DNA from: Bacteroidales bacterium
GTDB lineage: Bacteria > Bacteroidota > Bacteroidia > Bacteroidales > UBA932
Direction of reading: 5' to 3'
NCBI GenBank assembly: GCA_017617035.1
Contig: JAFZWV010000032.1
Span: forward strand, 19,443 to 83,442
DNA length: 64,000 nt
Below are positions 3,560 through 60,574 of the stretch, piece after piece (position 1 is the first letter of the stretch; each line of letters starts with the position of its first letter). Below the pieces are notes generated by a model that worked only from the letters and a program-made list of their open reading frames with translations, did no database searches and had not been told where the DNA came from. Both the position numbers and the translations under genes were made by a program.

Positions 3560-4957
3560 ATGAAGCGTTATATACTAGTCGCAATAATGGCTATATTGAC
3601 CATTGCCTGCTCACCGGTTGAGGATAATCCCCAACCGGTTCAGGTGGCTCCTACGTATATCACTTTTAGTCAGAACGAGTTCCACTTTCCTGTAGAAGGA
3701 GGCAGTGCGCAACTTGAAATCACAGCGCCATCCAGACCCACACTATCCGGAATACCATATTGGATTAAGGTTACTGATGGTGTATATGTCAATTATAAGA
3801 TTACCTACACTATCACTGTCGAAGCCAACTATACACATTCTCCCAAAGAAGATTATATAAACGTTCAGATCGGGACGCGGTTGGGAGGTTTTGCGGTTTA
3901 TCAGGAATGCATCGGTGACCCTATAGATTCCAACGCAGATATAGATATTAAGCTAACGAACAAAAACTCCAGTAGAGATGCCAATTGCGTTTACCAATTC
4001 CTAAGGTACATCTACGGCCAAAGAATTCTTAGCGGAGTGCAGTCTACAGACACCGCGAACAACAATATAGCGCTTAACCGTGTCTATGAAATAACAGGAA
4101 AGCATCCGGCTTTGTCCTGCTATGACTTTATCTTTCTACAGTATTCACCAACCCCTGAGAACTGGAGTTGGAAGATTGACTACAGCAATATCTCAGCCGC
4201 GAAGGAACATTGGGACGCCAACGGTCTGGTATCCTATATGTGGCACTGGAATGTTCCAACATCTGAAGCAGCATGGGAAAAGGGCAAAAACGGAGAATTC
4301 AACGGCTACGGATTCTACAGCAATGATACTGCTTTCGATATTACGCGTGCTCTTACCGATGGAACATGGGAAAATGAATTCTTACTCGGGGATATCGATA
4401 AGGTCGCGGGATATCTCAAACTACTGCAGGCCGAAGGAATCCCCGTCATCTGGCGTCCCCTCCACGAAGCCGCCGGGAATTATAACATCTACGGGACCAA
4501 CGGCGCTTGGTTCTGGTGGGGCCGTGGTGGGGCCGAGCCATGCAAACGGTTGTGGAAATTGCTGCGGGATAAACTCGAAGGTGAGTACGGTCTTGATAAT
4601 CTTATATGGGTATGGACTCTGGACGCCACCCAGGGAGCAGAAACTCAGTATTCTGACTGGTATCCCGGCAATGAATATGTAGATATAATAGGAGTTGACA
4701 TATATGCTGATGACACGGAGGCAAAACAGCGTCAGTACAACGCCGCTGTAGCGCTCAGTGGTGGCCACAAAATGGTAACAATCAGCGAATGCGGTAATAT
4801 TCCCGATCCTCGAAAGTGCCTGAGTGCCGCCCAATTCTGGAGTTGGTTCCTGGTATGGGATCTGGACAGTTATTCACTAAATACAGACACTTATTGGAAA
4901 ACCCTGATGGCATCGCCTGCCGTTATTGGCCGCGAAGATATGCCATTTATGAAATAA
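3560..4957 (+). CDS. GH26 beta-mannanase lipoprotein with BACON-type domain
   Basis: An endo-acting beta-1,4-mannanase of glycoside hydrolase family 26, probably at the cell surface. The N-terminus is a lipoprotein signal with lipid Cys17 (LTIAC), followed by a BACON-like beta domain (about residues 30-118) and a GH26 TIM barrel (about 140-465). The acid/base is expected to be Glu303 in WRPLHE and the nucleophile Glu410 in TISECG, both present and correctly spaced; the Trp-rich FWWGRGG motif after the acid/base is also typical. It opens the hydrolase run of the locus and is followed 9 bases later by a GH5 gene. Mannan is the usual GH26 substrate, though some members cut other beta-glycans. 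Family call is firm; substrate is inferred. Confidence 0.88.
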   Translation: MKRYILVAIMAILTIACSPVEDNPQPVQVAPTYITFSQNEFHFPVEGGSAQLEITAPSRPTLSGIPYWIKVTDGVYVNYKITYTITVEANYTHSPKEDYINVQIGTRLGGFAVYQECIGDPIDSNADIDIKLTNKNSSRDANCVYQFLRYIYGQRILSGVQSTDTANNNIALNRVYEITGKHPALSCYDFIFLQYSPTPENWSWKIDYSNISAAKEHWDANGLVSYMWHWNVPTSEAAWEKGKNGEFNGYGFYSNDTAFDITRALTDGTWENEFLLGDIDKVAGYLKLLQAEGIPVIWRPLHEAAGNYNIYGTNGAWFWWGRGGAEPCKRLWKLLRDKLEGEYGLDNLIWVWTLDATQGAETQYSDWYPGNEYVDIIGVDIYADDTEAKQRQYNAAVALSGGHKMVTISECGNIPDPRKCLSAAQFWSWFLVWDLDSYSLNTDTYWKTLMASPAVIGREDMPFMK

Positions 4958-18159: not shown

Positions 18160-19068
18160 TTATAGATGCATATACTTTCGTAAGGCTAGACCATCAATCT
18201 GGTAACGATTCATAAGTACATTTGCCATCTTGACTTTTTCATCCCGGCTGGCCTCATATATCTTTCGCGGAGACCAGCCCTTTTCTTTTAGTATCTTTCC
18301 TATCCTTACATATTCTTGGTCGGAGAATCGATAATACTCCTCTTTAATATCGTGTTCGGCACCGACGACAGAATCAAACGCTGAGACCATTGTTTCAAAA
18401 TCTCCATAAAACTCAATAGCCTTGTCGAAATCGACATATAAATACGTAGAAATAGTATAATCTATTAGTTGTTCTATTTCCACGTGATTCAGCCCAATGG
18501 TAATACTATACCAATCGGAATACTTTAGATATTTCTTTTGCTTACGCCTTCTTGCGACAAATCGCATGGCGTAAGTGAGTTGTTGAGAGGCTTTCTCAAG
18601 AGTAATCGGTTCTGAAAAAGGAAATCCATTTCTGTAATATGGAAGGAAAGTCCACCTTTCATCAACAGCATGCTTACAGAGCCCTTTTTCAACGTGGTTA
18701 TTAGCGACATAAGCAAGGTTTTCCCTGATTTTCTTCTCACTGGTTTTGGCCGCGCTTCCAAAAGTATCGTGGAATAAAGAGCCCTTCCTCCCGTAATGGC
18801 AATTATGCAATCTTGCATATACAGATGTCGCATCCTGCATAAATTTCGACATCTTACTCTTCATATTTGCAATGAGAGAATGATGCAGATGGGTGAACAT
18901 AATGGCTGACATAAGGATAGTAATCCCATAGCGTTCAGCCATCACGCACACTACTGAGCAGAACACTATTCTGTCGACAACGTTGTAGAACACGACGCCA
19001 CCATCAATGGATTTCTGATAAATGTGCTGCACGGCACGAGCCGTAAAAGGACGAAGCTTGTGATTCAT
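18160..19068 (-). CDS. REP-associated tyrosine transposase (Y1/HUH family)
   Basis: A single-strand DNA nuclease of the Y1 transposase superfamily, RAYT branch. The metal-binding HUH motif appears as THLHHSL (His60, His62) and the nucleophile as Tyr120 in ENLAYVANNHVEKGL, the pattern expected before NPV/NHV-x-KG in this family. The 302-residue protein is longer than a minimal IS200 transposase; the extra 100-odd C-terminal residues are helical and Lys/Glu-rich and may bind DNA. The gene is visibly richer in A/T than the genes on either side, which suggests horizontal acquisition. It is immediately flanked by its presumed substrate palindromes. It may be a domesticated enzyme; activity is not shown. 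Confidence 0.85.
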   Translation of the reverse strand: MNHKLRPFTARAVQHIYQKSIDGGVVFYNVVDRIVFCSVVCVMAERYGITILMSAIMFTHLHHSLIANMKSKMSKFMQDATSVYARLHNCHYGRKGSLFHDTFGSAAKTSEKKIRENLAYVANNHVEKGLCKHAVDERWTFLPYYRNGFPFSEPITLEKASQQLTYAMRFVARRRKQKKYLKYSDWYSITIGLNHVEIEQLIDYTISTYLYVDFDKAIEFYGDFETMVSAFDSVVGAEHDIKEEYYRFSDQEYVRIGKILKEKGWSPRKIYEASRDEKVKMANVLMNRYQIDGLALRKYMHL

Positions 19069-19116
19069 AGTAAAAGAACTATTATAGGTTAATAACTGAA
19101 GCTAAAATACAAAAAA

Positions 19117-24153: not shown

Positions 24154-24965
24154 AGCCCGAAGTTCGCCAGCAACTCATAGACTGGGCCGAGACCTACAAC
24201 GACCCCGTCTATTTCCAGGAGGATCCCATCGCATTCCCGCGTGAGTTTCTCCAGCGCGGCGCCGCACTCCAGGATATCGAGATTGCGGCGATCTTCGCCG
24301 CACACCTGGCCTGGGGGCGCCGCGCCATGATCGTGCGCGACTGCACCCGCCTCTTCGACGAAATGGAATGGCGCCCTTACAACTACATAATGGCCCACTC
24401 CTACCGCGACGACAACACGAGCCTGCATCGCACCATCAAATGGTCCGAAATCGCCCACATCTGTAATAGATTATATCATTTCTATTCGGCCAGGGCGACC
24501 AGTACCCCCCGAACCGTCTCGCTTGCGCTCGACCCCACCGTTCACTCCGTTCACGGTTCCCCCTCTTATGGTGCCGAGGGTAGCACAGGTTCTGGGGGCA
24601 CTGGTCGCCCTGTGCGCTCGTTAGAGTTACTAAGCGCAGAGGAAATAAGAGTTACCATTTTCAGGCAGAAGGAGGACAAGAGGGCGGCGAACAAGAAGAT
24701 CAACATGATGCGCAGATGGATGGTCAGAAACGACGGAAAGGTCGATCTGGGACTGTGGACGCATACCAGTGCGGCGGATCTCATCATTCCGCTGGATGTG
24801 CATGTGTATACTCAGGCGGCAGCGCTGGGACTAACAGACAGAAAACAGAAAGATATAGTGACGGCGCGTCAGATAACGGATGCGTTCAGGGAGATTTGGC
24901 CCGACGATCCAGTAAAGGGCGATTTCGCGCTGTTTGGATACGGAGTAACGAGAAAAGATGCCTAG
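24150..24965 (+). CDS. TIGR02757 family protein with in-frame repeat insertion
   Basis: Conserved bacterial protein of unknown function (TIGR02757/DUF2400). The ends match the family: an N-terminal helical region with FAAHLAWGRRAMI and a C-terminal block with KVDLGLWTH, LIIPLDVHV and FALFGYGV. Between FYSARA (about residue 115) and LELLSAEE (about 158) lies a low-complexity stretch (STPRTVSLALDPTVHSVHG onward, rich in Ser, Gly, Pro and Thr) that is encoded by an imperfect palindrome and does not look like the rest of the protein. It appears to be a translated repeat insertion. The gene overlaps pepD by 4 bases and the zeta-toxin-like gene by 8. Confidence 0.8.
   Translation: MKPEVRQQLIDWAETYNDPVYFQEDPIAFPREFLQRGAALQDIEIAAIFAAHLAWGRRAMIVRDCTRLFDEMEWRPYNYIMAHSYRDDNTSLHRTIKWSEIAHICNRLYHFYSARATSTPRTVSLALDPTVHSVHGSPSYGAEGSTGSGGTGRPVRSLELLSAEEIRVTIFRQKEDKRAANKKINMMRRWMVRNDGKVDLGLWTHTSAADLIIPLDVHVYTQAAALGLTDRKQKDIVTARQITDAFREIWPDDPVKGDFALFGYGVTRKDA
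24491..24612 (+). repeat. Palindromic repeat inserted in frame in the TIGR02757 gene
   Basis: CAGGGCGACCAGTACCCCC (24491-24509) and GGGGGCACTGGTCGCCCTG (24594-24612) are inverted repeats matching at 18 of 19 positions; further pairing (GAACC/GGTTC) continues inward. The roughly 120-base insert keeps the reading frame and has no stop in the coding frame. Its base composition (runs of C and G) stands out from the flanking gene. Confidence 0.85.
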
Positions 24966-25557
24966 ACTATACATATTGTCGGGTTGCAACGGTTCCGGTA
25001 AGACCACGGCGTCGTATACGCTGCTTCCGGAAATGCTCGAATGCCGCGAATTCGTCAATTCCGACGAGTTCGCAAAGAGCCTTTCGCCCTTTGACCCGTC
25101 GTCTGCGTCGGTATCGGCCAGCCGCTATATGCTCCTGAAAATCAGGTATTTGCTAAGCAAAAGAGCAGACTTCAGTATTGAGACTACCCTCGCTACCCGT
25201 TCGCTTCTGAACATCATTAAAGAAGCAAAGAGCTTGGGCTATACTGTTACTCTTTTATACTTCTGGCTGAAGACTCCCGAACTCGCAATCAAAAGAGTTC
25301 AGGCGCGAGTCGAGGCAGGCGGCCACAACATCCCTGAAGACACAGTTCGCAGGCGCTATGTAATGGGTCTGAGATACTTTTTCGAGACCTATGCGCCCGT
25401 TAGCGACCGCTGGGTATTGGCCGACAACTCCAAGACCCCGTTCACGGTAGTGGCCGAGGGCAACAAACAAGAAACTTTCATCAGAGATGAGGAGCGATAC
25501 AAGACCATTAGAAACGTTTGCTATCCGGAAGACGGATCTGGAGAAGCTGACCAGTGA
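24958..25557 (+). CDS. Zeta-toxin-like P-loop kinase
   Basis: A small ATP-binding protein with Walker A motif SGCNGSGKTT (residues 8-17) followed by NSDEFAK, SIETTLATR and a C-terminal Arg-rich stretch (VRRRYVMGLRYFF). This combination is typical of the stand-alone zeta-toxin-like or AAA kinases common in Bacteroidetes. No epsilon-type antitoxin gene is adjacent, so it may be a housekeeping nucleotide or sugar kinase rather than a toxin. The start overlaps TIGR02757 by 8 bases, and its end overlaps the tldD frame by 71 bases if tldD starts at 25487. Confidence 0.75.
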   Translation: MPRLYILSGCNGSGKTTASYTLLPEMLECREFVNSDEFAKSLSPFDPSSASVSASRYMLLKIRYLLSKRADFSIETTLATRSLLNIIKEAKSLGYTVTLLYFWLKTPELAIKRVQARVEAGGHNIPEDTVRRRYVMGLRYFFETYAPVSDRWVLADNSKTPFTVVAEGNKQETFIRDEERYKTIRNVCYPEDGSGEADQ

Positions 25558-26995
25558 GGCCCTGCGCAGCGGCGGCTCTTACTGTGATCTCTTCTTCGAG
25601 AGCACCATGGTCTCGAACCTGATGCTTCGCGACGGCGAAGTAAGTTCGGGCGGTCTAACGGTCGACTATGGCTGCGGCGTCCGCGTCCTCGAGGGCGAGA
25701 AAACCGGCTACGCCTACTCCGAATCCACCGACATGCGCTCGCTCCTCGAGGCCGCCCGCGCCGCCGGAGCAATAGCGGGAAAAGATTCCTTCGCTTCGCT
25801 CGGAATGACAAAGAAAGGGCTCGAAATGACAAATAAATTGTCATCTCGACCAAGCAATCGGGGCCCCCGCCAATTGCAAATTGGTGGGGTGAAGCAAGCG
25901 AGTGGAGAGATCCCAAACTTCTACCCTATGCAGCGCGACTGGCGCACCTGCAACCCGGCAGATTTTGTAGAGGGACTGCATAAGCTCGAGAGCCTGATAC
26001 GCGCGAAAGACAGCCGTGTCGCCAAGGTAATCGCCCTTCTGGGCTACTCGGTCAGCGAAATCCTGATGTACAACTCGCTGGACGAACTTACCTCCGACCT
26101 CAGGCCCATGGCAAGTCTCAGCGTGCAGGTCGTCTACCAGAGCAAGGGCTCGGTCCAGACCAAGAGCGCCTCACGCAGTTTCCGTATGGGAGTCGAGTTC
26201 TTTACCGACGAGCTCATCAACGAAGTCGCGACCGAGGCGACGGCTGGCATCGACGCCATGTTCGAAGCCCGGCGTCCCGCCGGAGGCCAGATGAGCGTCG
26301 TGATGGGCGCCGGCGCCTCCGGAATACTTCTCCACGAAGCCATGGGCCATGCTTTCGAAGCCGACTTCAACCGCAAGGGCCAGTCGATATTCGCCGGCAA
26401 AATAGGCCAGCAGATATGCCGTAAGGGCATCAACATAGTCGACGACGGCACTCTCCCCTTCTTCCGCGGCAGTTGCAACTTTGACGACGAGGGCGTGCCC
26501 GGCCAAAAGACCTACATGGTCACGGACGGAGTCCTGACCTCCTATCTCCATGACCGCATCAGCGCGAACTACTATGGCGTCGCCCCTACGGGCAACGGCC
26601 GCCGCGAATCGTTCCGCTACAACCCCATCCCGCGCATGCGCTCGACCTACATGGAAAACGGCGCAGACGGGACTGTCGAAGACCTCATCAAGATGGCAGG
26701 CAACGGCATCTATGTCGACGAATTCGCCAACGGCGAGGTCAAGATAGGCGAAGGCGACTTCACCTTCTACGTGAAGAGCGGCTTCCTTATCGAAGACGGC
26801 CGCCTGACCATGCCCGTAAAGGACATCAACATAATAGGAAACGGTCCCCAGGCGCTCTCCGACATAGTCGCGGTAGCAGGCGACCTGAAGGTGGACCCGG
26901 GCCGATGGACCTGCGGCAAGGGGCAGAGCGCCCCGGTGAGCTGCGGCATCCCCTCAGTCCTCATCAATAATCTAACGGTAGGAGGCGGACAATGA
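25487..26995 (+). CDS. tldD: TldD-type metalloprotease subunit with in-frame repeat insertion
   Basis: TldD partner of the TldD/TldE peptidase, which trims unfolded or modified peptides in the cytoplasm. The zinc motif HExxxH is intact as LLHEAMGHAFEADF (His283, Glu284, His288). Start 25487 overlaps the previous gene by 71 bases; homology begins only around DLEKLTSEALRSGGSYCD, so the true start may be nearby. Residues about 100-145 (starting SLGMTKKGLEMTNKL) are encoded by a repeat palindrome and replace a short loop between AAGAIAGK and FYPMQRDW. The frame is kept and the catalytic domain is untouched, so the protein is probably functional. tldE follows with a 4-base overlap. Confidence 0.88.
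   Translation: MRSDTRPLETFAIRKTDLEKLTSEALRSGGSYCDLFFESTMVSNLMLRDGEVSSGGLTVDYGCGVRVLEGEKTGYAYSESTDMRSLLEAARAAGAIAGKDSFASLGMTKKGLEMTNKLSSRPSNRGPRQLQIGGVKQASGEIPNFYPMQRDWRTCNPADFVEGLHKLESLIRAKDSRVAKVIALLGYSVSEILMYNSLDELTSDLRPMASLSVQVVYQSKGSVQTKSASRSFRMGVEFFTDELINEVATEATAGIDAMFEARRPAGGQMSVVMGAGASGILLHEAMGHAFEADFNRKGQSIFAGKIGQQICRKGINIVDDGTLPFFRGSCNFDDEGVPGQKTYMVTDGVLTSYLHDRISANYYGVAPTGNGRRESFRYNPIPRMRSTYMENGADGTVEDLIKMAGNGIYVDEFANGEVKIGEGDFTFYVKSGFLIEDGRLTMPVKDINIIGNGPQALSDIVAVAGDLKVDPGRWTCGKGQSAPVSCGIPSVLINNLTVGGGQ
25783..25911 (+). repeat. Composite palindromic repeat inserted in frame in tldD
   Basis: The left part AGATTCCTTCGCTTCGCTCG followed by GAATGACAA faces a right part TTGTCATCTCGACC...AAGCGAGTGGAGAGATC, giving an interrupted inverted repeat. 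Inside is a second hairpin, CCCCGCCAATT/AATTGGTGGGG (25865-25889). The left arm is a relative of the GAGATTTCTCC...TCGAAATGACA repeat found in vanZ at 60242-60377. The insert has no stop in the tldD frame. Confidence 0.85.
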
Positions 26996-58220: not shown

Positions 58221-60050
58221 ATGAAACAATTCTGGAAAGTCATAAAACGTTATGTAGGCCCCTACACCGGCTATCTCGGCGGCTCAGTGCTGCTGAATAT
58301 CCTCTCGGCGGTCTTCAACGTATTCTCGTTCTCCCTGCTCATACCTATTCTGAAGATTCTCTTCGACACCTCGGGTAAGATATATGAACTCATTCCCTGG
58401 GAAGAGGTCAATGATTTTGCAGGCTTTACGAACAACATCTACTACTATGTAGGCGATTGGATGGCCACCTACGGGACCAGCAAGGTTCTGCTCGTCCTCT
58501 GCCTCTGCTTCTGCGCCATCACCCTTATCAAGACCAGCTGCTATTTCGGCTCGTCTGCGGTGATGATACCGATACGCACCGGCATAGTCAAGGACATGCG
58601 CATGCAGATTTACCGCAAAATCCTCTCGCTGCCTATAGGTTTCTTCTCGCAGGAGCGCAAGGGCGACATCATAGCCCGTATGAGCGGCGATGTCCAGGAA
58701 GTCGAGACCTCGATAACCAGTACGCTGGACATGCTGATCAAGAACCCGATTCTAATCATCATCTACCTCGCCGTGCTCTTTACGATGTCGTGGAAACTGA
58801 CGGTCTTTACACTGATCTTCGCACCAGTTATGTTGCTGATTATGACCGCGATAGGTCGTAAACTCAAGGCGCGCAGCCTCGAAGCCCAGCGCTTCTGGTC
58901 CGACACCATGTCGCAGGTCGAAGAGACACTCGGCGGCCTGCGCATAATCAAGGCGTTCCTGGCCGAAGGCAAGATGACCGACCGCTTCAACACCGTCACC
59001 GGCAACATGAAGCGCAAGAACACCCATGTCGGCATACGCCAGGCCAGCGCCCACCCTGTAAGCGAGCTGCTCGGCAGCGTCCTCATCGCGATAGTCCTCT
59101 GGTTCGGCGGCACCCTCATCCTGGGCGACCATGCCAGCATCGACGCCCCGGCCTTCATCTCCTACATGACCATCCTCTACTCGATCATCCAGCCGGTCAA
59201 GGACCTCTCCAAAGCGGCCTACGCTATCCCCAAGGGCATGGCGTCCATGGAGCGCATCGACAAGATCCTCACGGCCGAGAGCCCGATCAAGGAACCCGCG
59301 AACCCCAAGCCGCTCACCAGCTTCGAGCACGCCATCAGCTTCAAGCACGTCGGCTTCTCCTACGACGGGAAGCGCCAGATCCTGTGCGACGTCAACCTCG
59401 AGATTGAGAAGGGTAAGACCATAGCCATAGTGGGCGCGTCCGGAGCCGGTAAATCGACCATGGTCGACCTCATCCCCCGCTTCTGGGACGTCACCGAAGG
59501 CGCAATCGAGATCGACGGCACCGACATCCGCGAGTACAGCACCCACGACCTGCGTGCCCTGATGGGCAACGTCAACCAGGAACCGATCCTGTTCAACGAC
59601 ACCATCTTCAACAACATAGCCTTCGGAGTCGAGGGTGCTACCCGCGAGCAGGTCGAAGCCGCGGCCAGGATAGCCAATGCCCATGACTTCATCATGGAGA
59701 AACCTAACGGCTACGACGAGAACATAGGCGACCGTGGAGCGAAACTCTCCGGCGGCCAGCGCCAGCGCATCTCGATCGCCCGCGCCATTCTCAAGAACCC
59801 GCCCATCCTCATTCTCGACGAGGCTACTGCATCGCTTGACACCGAGTCAGAGAAGATAGTCCAGGAGGCCCTCGACCGCCTCATGAGCAACCGCACAACA
59901 ATCGCCATCGCCCACCGTCTCTCGACCGTAAAAAACGCCGATGAGATCATAGTCATGGACGAAGGCCGTATAGTCGAGCGCGGACGCCACGAAGAGCTTA
60001 TCGCCCTCGGTGGTATCTACGCAAAACTCCACGACATGCAAGCGCTGTAA
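58221..60050 (+). CDS. MsbA-like ABC exporter (fused TM and ATPase)
   Basis: Half-transporter with six membrane helices (about 1-320) and an ATPase domain (about 350-609). Nucleotide-binding motifs are intact: Walker A GASGAGKST near 405, Q-loop VNQEPILFND, signature LSGGQRQRIS, Walker B ILILDEATAS and switch His in AIAHRLST. The family exports lipids such as lipid A cores or hydrophobic compounds. ATG lies 1 base after the MBL stop and its own stop overlaps the VanZ start. A role in lipid A export would match the acyltransferase in this window, but other substrates are possible. Confidence 0.9.
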   Translation: MKQFWKVIKRYVGPYTGYLGGSVLLNILSAVFNVFSFSLLIPILKILFDTSGKIYELIPWEEVNDFAGFTNNIYYYVGDWMATYGTSKVLLVLCLCFCAITLIKTSCYFGSSAVMIPIRTGIVKDMRMQIYRKILSLPIGFFSQERKGDIIARMSGDVQEVETSITSTLDMLIKNPILIIIYLAVLFTMSWKLTVFTLIFAPVMLLIMTAIGRKLKARSLEAQRFWSDTMSQVEETLGGLRIIKAFLAEGKMTDRFNTVTGNMKRKNTHVGIRQASAHPVSELLGSVLIAIVLWFGGTLILGDHASIDAPAFISYMTILYSIIQPVKDLSKAAYAIPKGMASMERIDKILTAESPIKEPANPKPLTSFEHAISFKHVGFSYDGKRQILCDVNLEIEKGKTIAIVGASGAGKSTMVDLIPRFWDVTEGAIEIDGTDIREYSTHDLRALMGNVNQEPILFNDTIFNNIAFGVEGATREQVEAAARIANAHDFIMEKPNGYDENIGDRGAKLSGGQRQRISIARAILKNPPILILDEATASLDTESEKIVQEALDRLMSNRTTIAIAHRLSTVKNADEIIVMDEGRIVERGRHEELIALGGIYAKLHDMQAL

Positions 60051-60574
60051 TGAAAGTACCCAGGAAACTGTTTTGGAGAATATTGCTCGTCGTGTATCTC
60101 GCGGCGGTCGCCTACGTCTGCTTTGCAGGCCAGGGCAGCCTCCCCAAGTTCACCGACTGGCCCTTCTCCATCCCGGCCGACAAGTGCGTTCACTTCGTGC
60201 TGTTTTTGCCCTGGCCGATACTGGCTTGCCTGTCTTTTATAGAGATTTCTCCACGCGCTACGCTTGGTCGAAATGACAGAAGTGTTGTCATTTCGAGCCC
60301 CTCATCTGTCATTTCGAGCCCCTCATCTGTCATTTCGAGCCCCTCATCTGTCATTTCGAGCGAAGTCGAGAAATCTCCGAGGTCAATTGTTATCCTGCTG
60401 ATAATAACGCTGATCGGTATGGCCCTGGCGGGCACGACAGAGTGGATACAGGGACTTCTCCCGTATCGTTCGAAGGATGTGTGGGATTTTATTGCAGACT
60501 GTCTGGGTCTGCTGGCCGGGGCTCTTCTTTTTGCGGTTGTTTATCTTTTTTTGCGAAGATCAAGAACTCGTTGA
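60050..60574 (+). CDS. VanZ-like membrane protein with in-frame repeat insertion
   Basis: Small integral membrane protein of the VanZ family. Helices at about 10-28, 45-64, 113-130 and 147-166, with DKCVHFVLF and TTEWIQGLLPYRSKDVWDFIADCLG, match the family. Residues about 64-112 are an insertion encoded by a repeat: ISSPSSV is repeated three times and ends in ISSEVEKSPRS. The insertion falls in the loop between helices 2 and 3 and keeps the frame, so the protein may still be made. Overlaps the ABC stop by 1 base, and its 3' end overlaps the convergent gtrA end by 86 bases. Confidence 0.8.
   Translation: MKVPRKLFWRILLVVYLAAVAYVCFAGQGSLPKFTDWPFSIPADKCVHFVLFLPWPILACLSFIEISPRATLGRNDRSVVISSPSSVISSPSSVISSPSSVISSEVEKSPRSIVILLIITLIGMALAGTTEWIQGLLPYRSKDVWDFIADCLGLLAGALLFAVVYLFLRRSRTR
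60242..60377 (+). repeat. Inverted repeat with 21-bp tandem units, inside vanZ
   Basis: The outer arms GAGATTTCTCCACGCGCTAC...TCGAAATGACA (60242-60278) and TGTCATTTCGAGCGAAGTCG...GAAATCTC (60349-60377) are inverted copies. Between them lie three perfect 21-bp direct units beginning TGTCATTTCGAGCCCC at 60286, 60307 and 60328. Since 21 is a multiple of three, unit number can change without breaking the gene. It is related to the tldD insertion. Confidence 0.92.

Follow-up and report, generated by a model that had tools for sequence, protein, structure and literature searches.

The tldD gene and its insert

How a metalloprotease-like gene comes to carry a palindromic repeat in the middle of its reading frame is the question raised by this locus, which lies in a 64,000 nucleotide stretch of DNA (the window, meaning the whole stretch that was analysed) from a Bacteroidales genome of 1,640,911 bases in 33 contigs (80% complete; G000 in our comparisons). 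The gene, tldD (25487..26995, + strand; 502 aa; an ORF call with matches to PF01523, PF19290 and PF19289), is open over its full length, insert included, and the insert is a stop-free block of 129 nt at 25784..25912 (+ strand), read as a peptide of 43 residues, DSFASLGMT...ASGEI (D100-I142). The first-pass annotation had described an in-frame composite palindromic repeat at 25783..25911; this is real and the frame is open, with its size of about 45 residues corrected to 43 codons. A small ORF with Zeta_toxin and AAA_33 matches (24958-25557, + strand) overlaps the start of tldD by 71 nt.

In the encoded protein (PmbA/TldD family), Pfam domain 1 spans residues 33-97, domain 2 residues 157-252 and the C-terminal domain residues 267-500, and the insert sits in the linker joining domains 1 and 2. 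A frameshift or pseudogene was ruled out by the open ORF and by the Pfam domains on both sides of the block, and the HEAMGH active-site motif (26333..26350, + strand; ORF translation, invariant columns 283-288 of the alignment of relatives) is intact, as had been claimed. The compared linker stretch is 89 aa long here vs 61 aa in two relatives (L236 and L237, proteins 87 and 89% identical), and by this alignment some of the native linker is gone at the insertion, the net gain being 28 aa and not 43. The earlier description had the insert replace a loop of the N-terminal domain; the site lies between two domains.

An AF2 model of the protein with its insert (32 sequences, mean pLDDT 68.8, pTM 0.67) found its best PDB match by structure comparison in E. 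coli TldD (5njc, TM 0.77/0.80). Residues 101-140 scored pLDDT values of 27-33, the chain from helix 83-97 to helix 157-174 was modelled without secondary structure, and in a sequence comparison with 5nj5 two matched parts flank the block, one on each side. From these three results the block seems to lengthen a floppy linker, with the proviso that low pLDDT is not by itself proof of disorder, as six more segments of the model, including 289-299 and 354-385, also fall below 50.

The block is composite. A REP unit on the minus strand (GTCATTCCGAGCGAAGCGAAGGAATC, also given as GATTCCTTCGCTTCGCTCGGAATGAC; 25784..25809, copy C19:45226) is read in tldD as DSFASLGMT; its end and one iteron are direct repeats of 19 nt, spaced 21 nt apart (25798..25837, + strand, repeat family D1). 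Head to head with this unit stands a partner unit (GTCATCTCGACC...GTGGAGAGATC; 25840..25912, + strand) with a nested hairpin inside, and the junction of the two is an inner inverted repeat (TCGAAATGACAA / TTGTCATCTCGA; 25821..25849, inverted pair I2). The nested palindrome in the partner-unit loop (25856..25897, inverted pair I4) has arms at 25865-25875 and 25879-25889, its exact borders being set by our own alignment of copies; counted from the AGATC end, dimers that contain it are 110 nt long and those that lack it 71 nt, a difference of 39 nt (13 codons). The DNA of 25775-25920 folds better than shuffled sequence (z -2.96; 1 of 200 shuffles as good), which, with the inverted pairs, bears out the palindrome with an internal hairpin that was first noticed.

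A second gene in the window, a vanZ-like ORF of 174 aa (60050..60574, + strand; named by reading the sequence only), contains a related in-frame REP array (60244..60376, + strand) in which GTCATTTCGAG recurs four times at 21-nt spacing, at 60287, 60308, 60329 and 60350. The tldD element and this insert share 79-81% identity over 52-58 nt, in agreement with the kinship that had been proposed between them. Both host genes had also been called cytoplasmic; judged by its sequence, the VanZ-like protein looks membrane-bound.

A repeat family dispersed through the genome

Searching the genome with the tldD block gave at least 74 matches at E <= 10 (40 of 90 candidates scored; the vanZ-like copy is absent from this list), and at least six other places match 77 bases or more of the block. 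The core TGTCATTCCGAGCGAAGCGAAGGAATC, with up to one mismatch allowed, occurs in about 51 copies and its reversed control in none. The block is therefore not a chance feature, and a chance palindrome was ruled out by the shuffle test, the genome matches and the core count against its control. Among 121 genomes of the genus the core pattern is present in 27, with most copies in G000 (51), followed by G097 (28).

We read 49 copies with their surroundings, these being the surroundings of the block matches plus five core-pattern places, a set from which about 6 of the 51 core copies are excluded (core-pattern places among the matches listed number 33 of 51). A T precedes the unit in all 49 copies and follows it in 48, so the unit has defined ends. 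The TGTC tag is present in 49 of 49, where GTC was part of the criterion by which copies were selected and the T was not. The stem starts with AT (ATTCC / GGAAT), and after GAATC comes a T in 48 of 49, giving a tail of CT after the stem and not CCA. At one stem pair, the 40 distinct unit sequences among the matches listed have C-G in 28, T-A in 10, C/A in 1 and T/G in 1; by these sequences the pair is maintained by compensation (38 of 40 pairable), the core pattern having allowed either stem base on each side independently. When three unit variants were folded alone as DNA, two formed an outer stem of 5 bp with an inner one of 2-3 bp, and the third folded otherwise. By reading, a head-to-head partner lies upstream in 25 of the 49 copies, at least 8 have a same-direction unit downstream, and several have iterons.

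Copies inside genes

Of the copies read, 26 were judged to be in frame, inside 25 genes, and related units without an exact core occur in four more (AroE, MrdA, HutU and the vanZ-like ORF). The annotation had noted two genes with related repeats, vs the 25 and four further genes counted here. By reading, family matches extend across the site or lie on both sides of it in 16 of the 26 genic copies: the ABC exporter, FtsK, UvrC, a SpoU-type RNA methyltransferase, citrate-lyase-ligase/CitG, RNase R (rnr), PrmC, MurF, an alpha-2-macroglobulin-like protein, a NapH/NapG-like protein, TldD, PolA, BatD/TPR, RibF, a glycoside hydrolase of family 2 (GH2) and carbamate kinase. The other 10 lack such evidence on at least one side. 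They comprise the two copies in one outer-membrane-barrel protein and those in a U32 peptidase, a MatE transporter, a DUF4855 protein, a protein TonB-like by eye without a family match, HutI, an FAD oxidoreductase, a DUF1963 protein and a 637-aa protein to which no family could be matched. Beyond the unit only about 30 residues remain in the U32 peptidase, MatE and FAD oxidoreductase.

Genic status was called by reading, without a fixed threshold. For C6:54812, C8:48861, C12:76208, C14:16835 and C15:24247 the script gave low scores on one side or both, and it chose another frame for C10:7745 and C14:63011; in all seven the proteins and their family matches led us to a genic call. In a check by gene prediction, in which flank homology was not used, none of the other 23 copies plainly divided a predicted gene in two; no fewer than four of them, counted as non-genic, are at gene 3' ends (C2:65695, C3:3486, C18:4281 and C18:40525). 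In UvrC a second unit stands at the C-terminus (SPVIPGEAKESNV-stop; L041 near 3486) besides the internal one. In the NapH/NapG case (L051:2381-3892, - strand) the repeat lies between the NapH-like and NapG-like parts of a single ORF, a layout that would suit either a fusion of two genes by the repeat or its entry at a natural junction.

The genic copies are read mainly in one frame: VIPSEAKES or a near form in 20, DSFA(S/A)LGMT in 5 and HSERSEGI in 1 (20 of 26 in one frame vs five stop-free frames, p 7e-10), and 21 of the 26 are in one orientation. The spacer between paired units is a multiple of three in all 16 genic pairs vs 5 of 9 other pairs (p 0.01; hand-picked pairs, omitting C1:27991, C15:6716 and C18:40525, whose 'partner' is a chance match). 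An open frame was itself the criterion for calling a copy genic, so this evidence is partly circular, and a broken gene would count as non-genic. The genic share (53%) falls below the coding share of the window, estimated roughly at 0.93 (deficit, p 2e-14), and most insertions into genes therefore seem, by these counts, to have been lost. The high genic share of G000 is not typical: in G097, another species of the genus, a script of similar design finds only 4 of 28 copies in frame, several of the 28 being at contig ends. One G097 ORF with an in-frame unit is of the TruB family (L106:2122-3417, + strand); TruB is a REP or RPE host elsewhere (PMC3733652, in the sections available).

The same sites in related genomes

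At the uvrC site, 23 of 25 genomes of the genus gave a match, and all 22 other than G000 lack the block. In carbamate kinase, a solved relative (1e19) is gapped where the block lies. For TldD we took the best 80 of 419 relatives, of which two had no readable ORF, leaving 78; their linker stretch ranges from 58 to 116 aa (89 aa here), and this variability ruled out an ordinary conserved loop. The four nearest relatives (L235-L238) share 84-89% identity. Three of them (L236, L237 and L238) have linkers of 61-64 aa with none of the repeat motifs that we defined post hoc, and the fourth, L235, has a 68-aa linker with a different palindrome, for which that genome gives 25 matches, counting the one in tldD and some split copies.

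Three other dispersed repeat families occupy the tldD linker of related species. In G007 and G057 the linker contains another repeat, matched 10 times in the first genome and 19 times in the second; a copy of this repeat also occupies the RNase R loop in G014, a genome with 15 matches to it (vs 1 in G008). A further repeat in G026 (22 matches in the genome) lies twice in PrmC (alignment of 10 of 30 loci, own included, with low-scoring loci left out), and PrmC carries REP segments in both G000 and G097. Two close relatives, L294 and L297, have tldD flanks identical at 142/150 and 140/150 positions, and in their linkers (L294:1062-1286 and L297:2259-2483) 77 nt match 77/77 when one is reverse-complemented, the frame being open in both orientations; this repeat is dispersed in both genomes (6 and 13 matches, tldD copies included). 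The tldD linker of L304 (1274-1498) has repeated GTCATCCCGGGG motifs, by their pattern perhaps another REP array. Motifs of five repeat kinds were found in 16 of 79 tldD linkers, so most relatives show none; they were chosen after viewing the linkers, and two of them also occur outside the linker in 3 (F3) and 2 (F1) of the 79 genes.

In the literature searched, a scope with most subscription papers outside it and with inversion and shared-site matches judged by title or abstract among the matches listed, we found neither unrelated repeats in one loop across a genus nor an in-frame inversion. We put forward tentatively, at somewhat less than even confidence, that particular loops of Cryptobacteroides proteins are standing docking sites for selfish palindromic DNA, at which unrelated families insert in frame, replace each other and flip in place; linkers of conserved proteins, among them TldD, PrmC and RNase R, would thereby be continually rewritten throughout the genus.

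Relation to known palindromic repeats

The annotation had likened the tldD insert to Rickettsia palindromic elements, and the in-frame copies in unrelated genes (26 of 49), their one preferred frame, the 22 genomes without the uvrC block and the TGTC tag all favour this likeness. Its further claim, that such elements are not commonly described in Bacteroidales, has to be qualified. Di Nocera, De Gregorio and Rocco (2013) reported CGTC-tagged REPs, TGTC variants included, in five phyla including Bacteroidetes, with head-to-head pairing and intragenic copies (PMC3733652, sections available), so the kind is already known; for REPs in frame in Bacteroidales, and for the unit letters and encoded peptides, the literature searched gave no match.

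In the available sections of that study, the CGTC superfamily is described as having a CGTC tag at the terminus (many repeats having TGTC or CCTC instead), a stem of 8-9 bp starting with complementary AT, a loop of 4-5 bases and a short unpaired tail which is mostly, not always, CCA; head-to-head dimers are predominant, head-to-tail ones negligible and clusters rare (PMC3733652). The tldD-family unit is alike in its TGTC tag, AT-first stem and intragenic copies, and in that no associated transposase was found (six Y1 ORFs). Head-to-head dimers account for about half of the copies, and at least 8 of 49 have a same-direction unit downstream. Stem length and tail are not a clean match, with a 5-bp outer and a short inner stem in our fold and a tail of CT. 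The unit differs from that description in its 21-nt iterons and nested palindrome, and over half of the copies read here lie in genes. On these features the unit largely fits the CGTC/TGTC REP superfamily. RPE-4 and RPE-6 of Rickettsia are placed in the same superfamily, RPE-1 being a longer, separate family (PMC3733652, same sections); by the tag and layout described there the tldD family would be akin to RPE-4 and RPE-6, and it resembles them in its in-frame insertion into many unrelated genes (25 here), but the host here is a gut or rumen Bacteroidales lineage.

BIMEs, REPINs and RAYT-associated GTAG REPs are likewise paired palindromes dispersed in a genome, but the tag here is TGTC, with no GTAG, and none of six Y1 genes is flanked by the unit. 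MITEs are short, non-autonomous, palindromic and dispersed; the tldD-family repeat is all of these, but a target duplication and matching transposon ends are not among its observed features.

Candidate mobilising enzymes

Six ORFs in G000 match Y1 transposases, four of them above the curated cut-off. No GTCAT..CGA core lies within 1.5 kb of any of the six (Y1 class only), which agrees with the published lack of a transposase for CGTC REPs, these seeming to be without a dedicated one in the available sections of PMC3733652. A RAYT REPtron of G000 was ruled out, as none of the six is flanked by the unit. That a Y1/HUH transposase of G000 (RAYT- or TIRYT-like) moves the repeat in trans would be compatible with the explanation preferred below, and is favoured by the presence of these six ORFs and by a Y1 match in 25 of 27 genomes with the core pattern vs 64 of 94 without it (Fisher p 0.012; 121 genomes, hand count), an association which is weak and uncorrected for kinship and genome completeness. 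Against it, no core lies near any of the six, and at least four of them adjoin other hairpins or repeats by eye; on balance we consider this enzyme an unlikely, if possible, mobiliser.

Within the window, a Y1-transposase-like ORF of 313 aa (18163-19101, - strand) has GGACTTCTCCCC...GGGGAGAAGTCC hairpins on both sides, and resembles the TIR-flanked Y1 genes described in the sections of PMC3733652 available to us. In L066, after position 3836, a Y1-like ORF is followed, by eye, by a tandem array of ~50-nt units (gtgtcccgctgtgtgtcccacctgtcac...).

Origin and persistence of the insert

The explanation that we consider very probable is that a small selfish family of palindromic REPs, spread through the genome, occupies the TldD linker, its copies surviving in genes only where the frame is kept and the site is tolerant. 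The family would be non-autonomous, built of TGTC-tagged REP units, often in head-to-head pairs, with 21-nt iterons and sometimes a nested hairpin. The repeat in tldD is probably mobile; it would have been moved or copied by an enzyme acting in trans, have spread through a Cryptobacteroides-like genome and have inserted into the linker that joins domains 1 and 2. Insertions in genes would mostly have been lost, the survivors being frame-keeping copies at tolerant sites, and the block would be translated as a roughly neutral 43-residue linker with TldD staying active.

Alternatively, the inserts could be kept because they are useful, the peptides (VIPSEAKES and others) or the hairpins tuning proteins or mRNAs, for instance of repair genes as suggested elsewhere. 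The dominance of one frame (20 of 26) and one orientation (21 of 26) would suit this, as would the presence among the hosts of uvrC and polA, DNA-repair genes being stressed as REP hosts in the available part of PMC3733652. However, a bias to DNA-repair hosts is absent, these two being 2 of 25 host genes; the hosts are varied in kind, chance would give more genic copies than are seen, and 22 other genomes do without the uvrC block. Since relatives have unrelated sequences in the tldD linker, no specific peptide is required at that site, and we regard a selected function as improbable. Nor does an ordinary variable linker, repetitive in appearance only, account for the block: the linker does vary across the 78 relatives, but these same units recur in unrelated genes, and the six or more other places matching 77 bases or more, with the further genome matches and 51 core copies, contradict this reading, which we give practically no credence.

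Hairpin-rich inserts are bypassed in some mitochondria, and the block might similarly be absent from the final product, through ribosome skipping or removal from RNA or protein. A skipped element would need neither an open frame nor a spacer of a multiple of three, but the tldD and uvrC blocks are stop-free and in frame and all 16 genic pairs have such a spacer; this argument is weakened by the use of an open frame to define genic copies, and skipping remains in our judgement very improbable. Under the preferred explanation, a selfish REP family retained where the frame and the site allow, the locus gives a quantified case, from one genome, of about 25 genes hosting in-frame copies of one palindromic repeat family. 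Relatives in which the loop is short, filled by another repeat, or holds the same repeat inverted are natural experiments, and species pairs differing at one site make the question of the CGTC-REP transposase, as framed in the sections of PMC3733652 available, a testable one. The length and sequence of linkers in such proteins may be a footprint of mobile DNA rather than of function.
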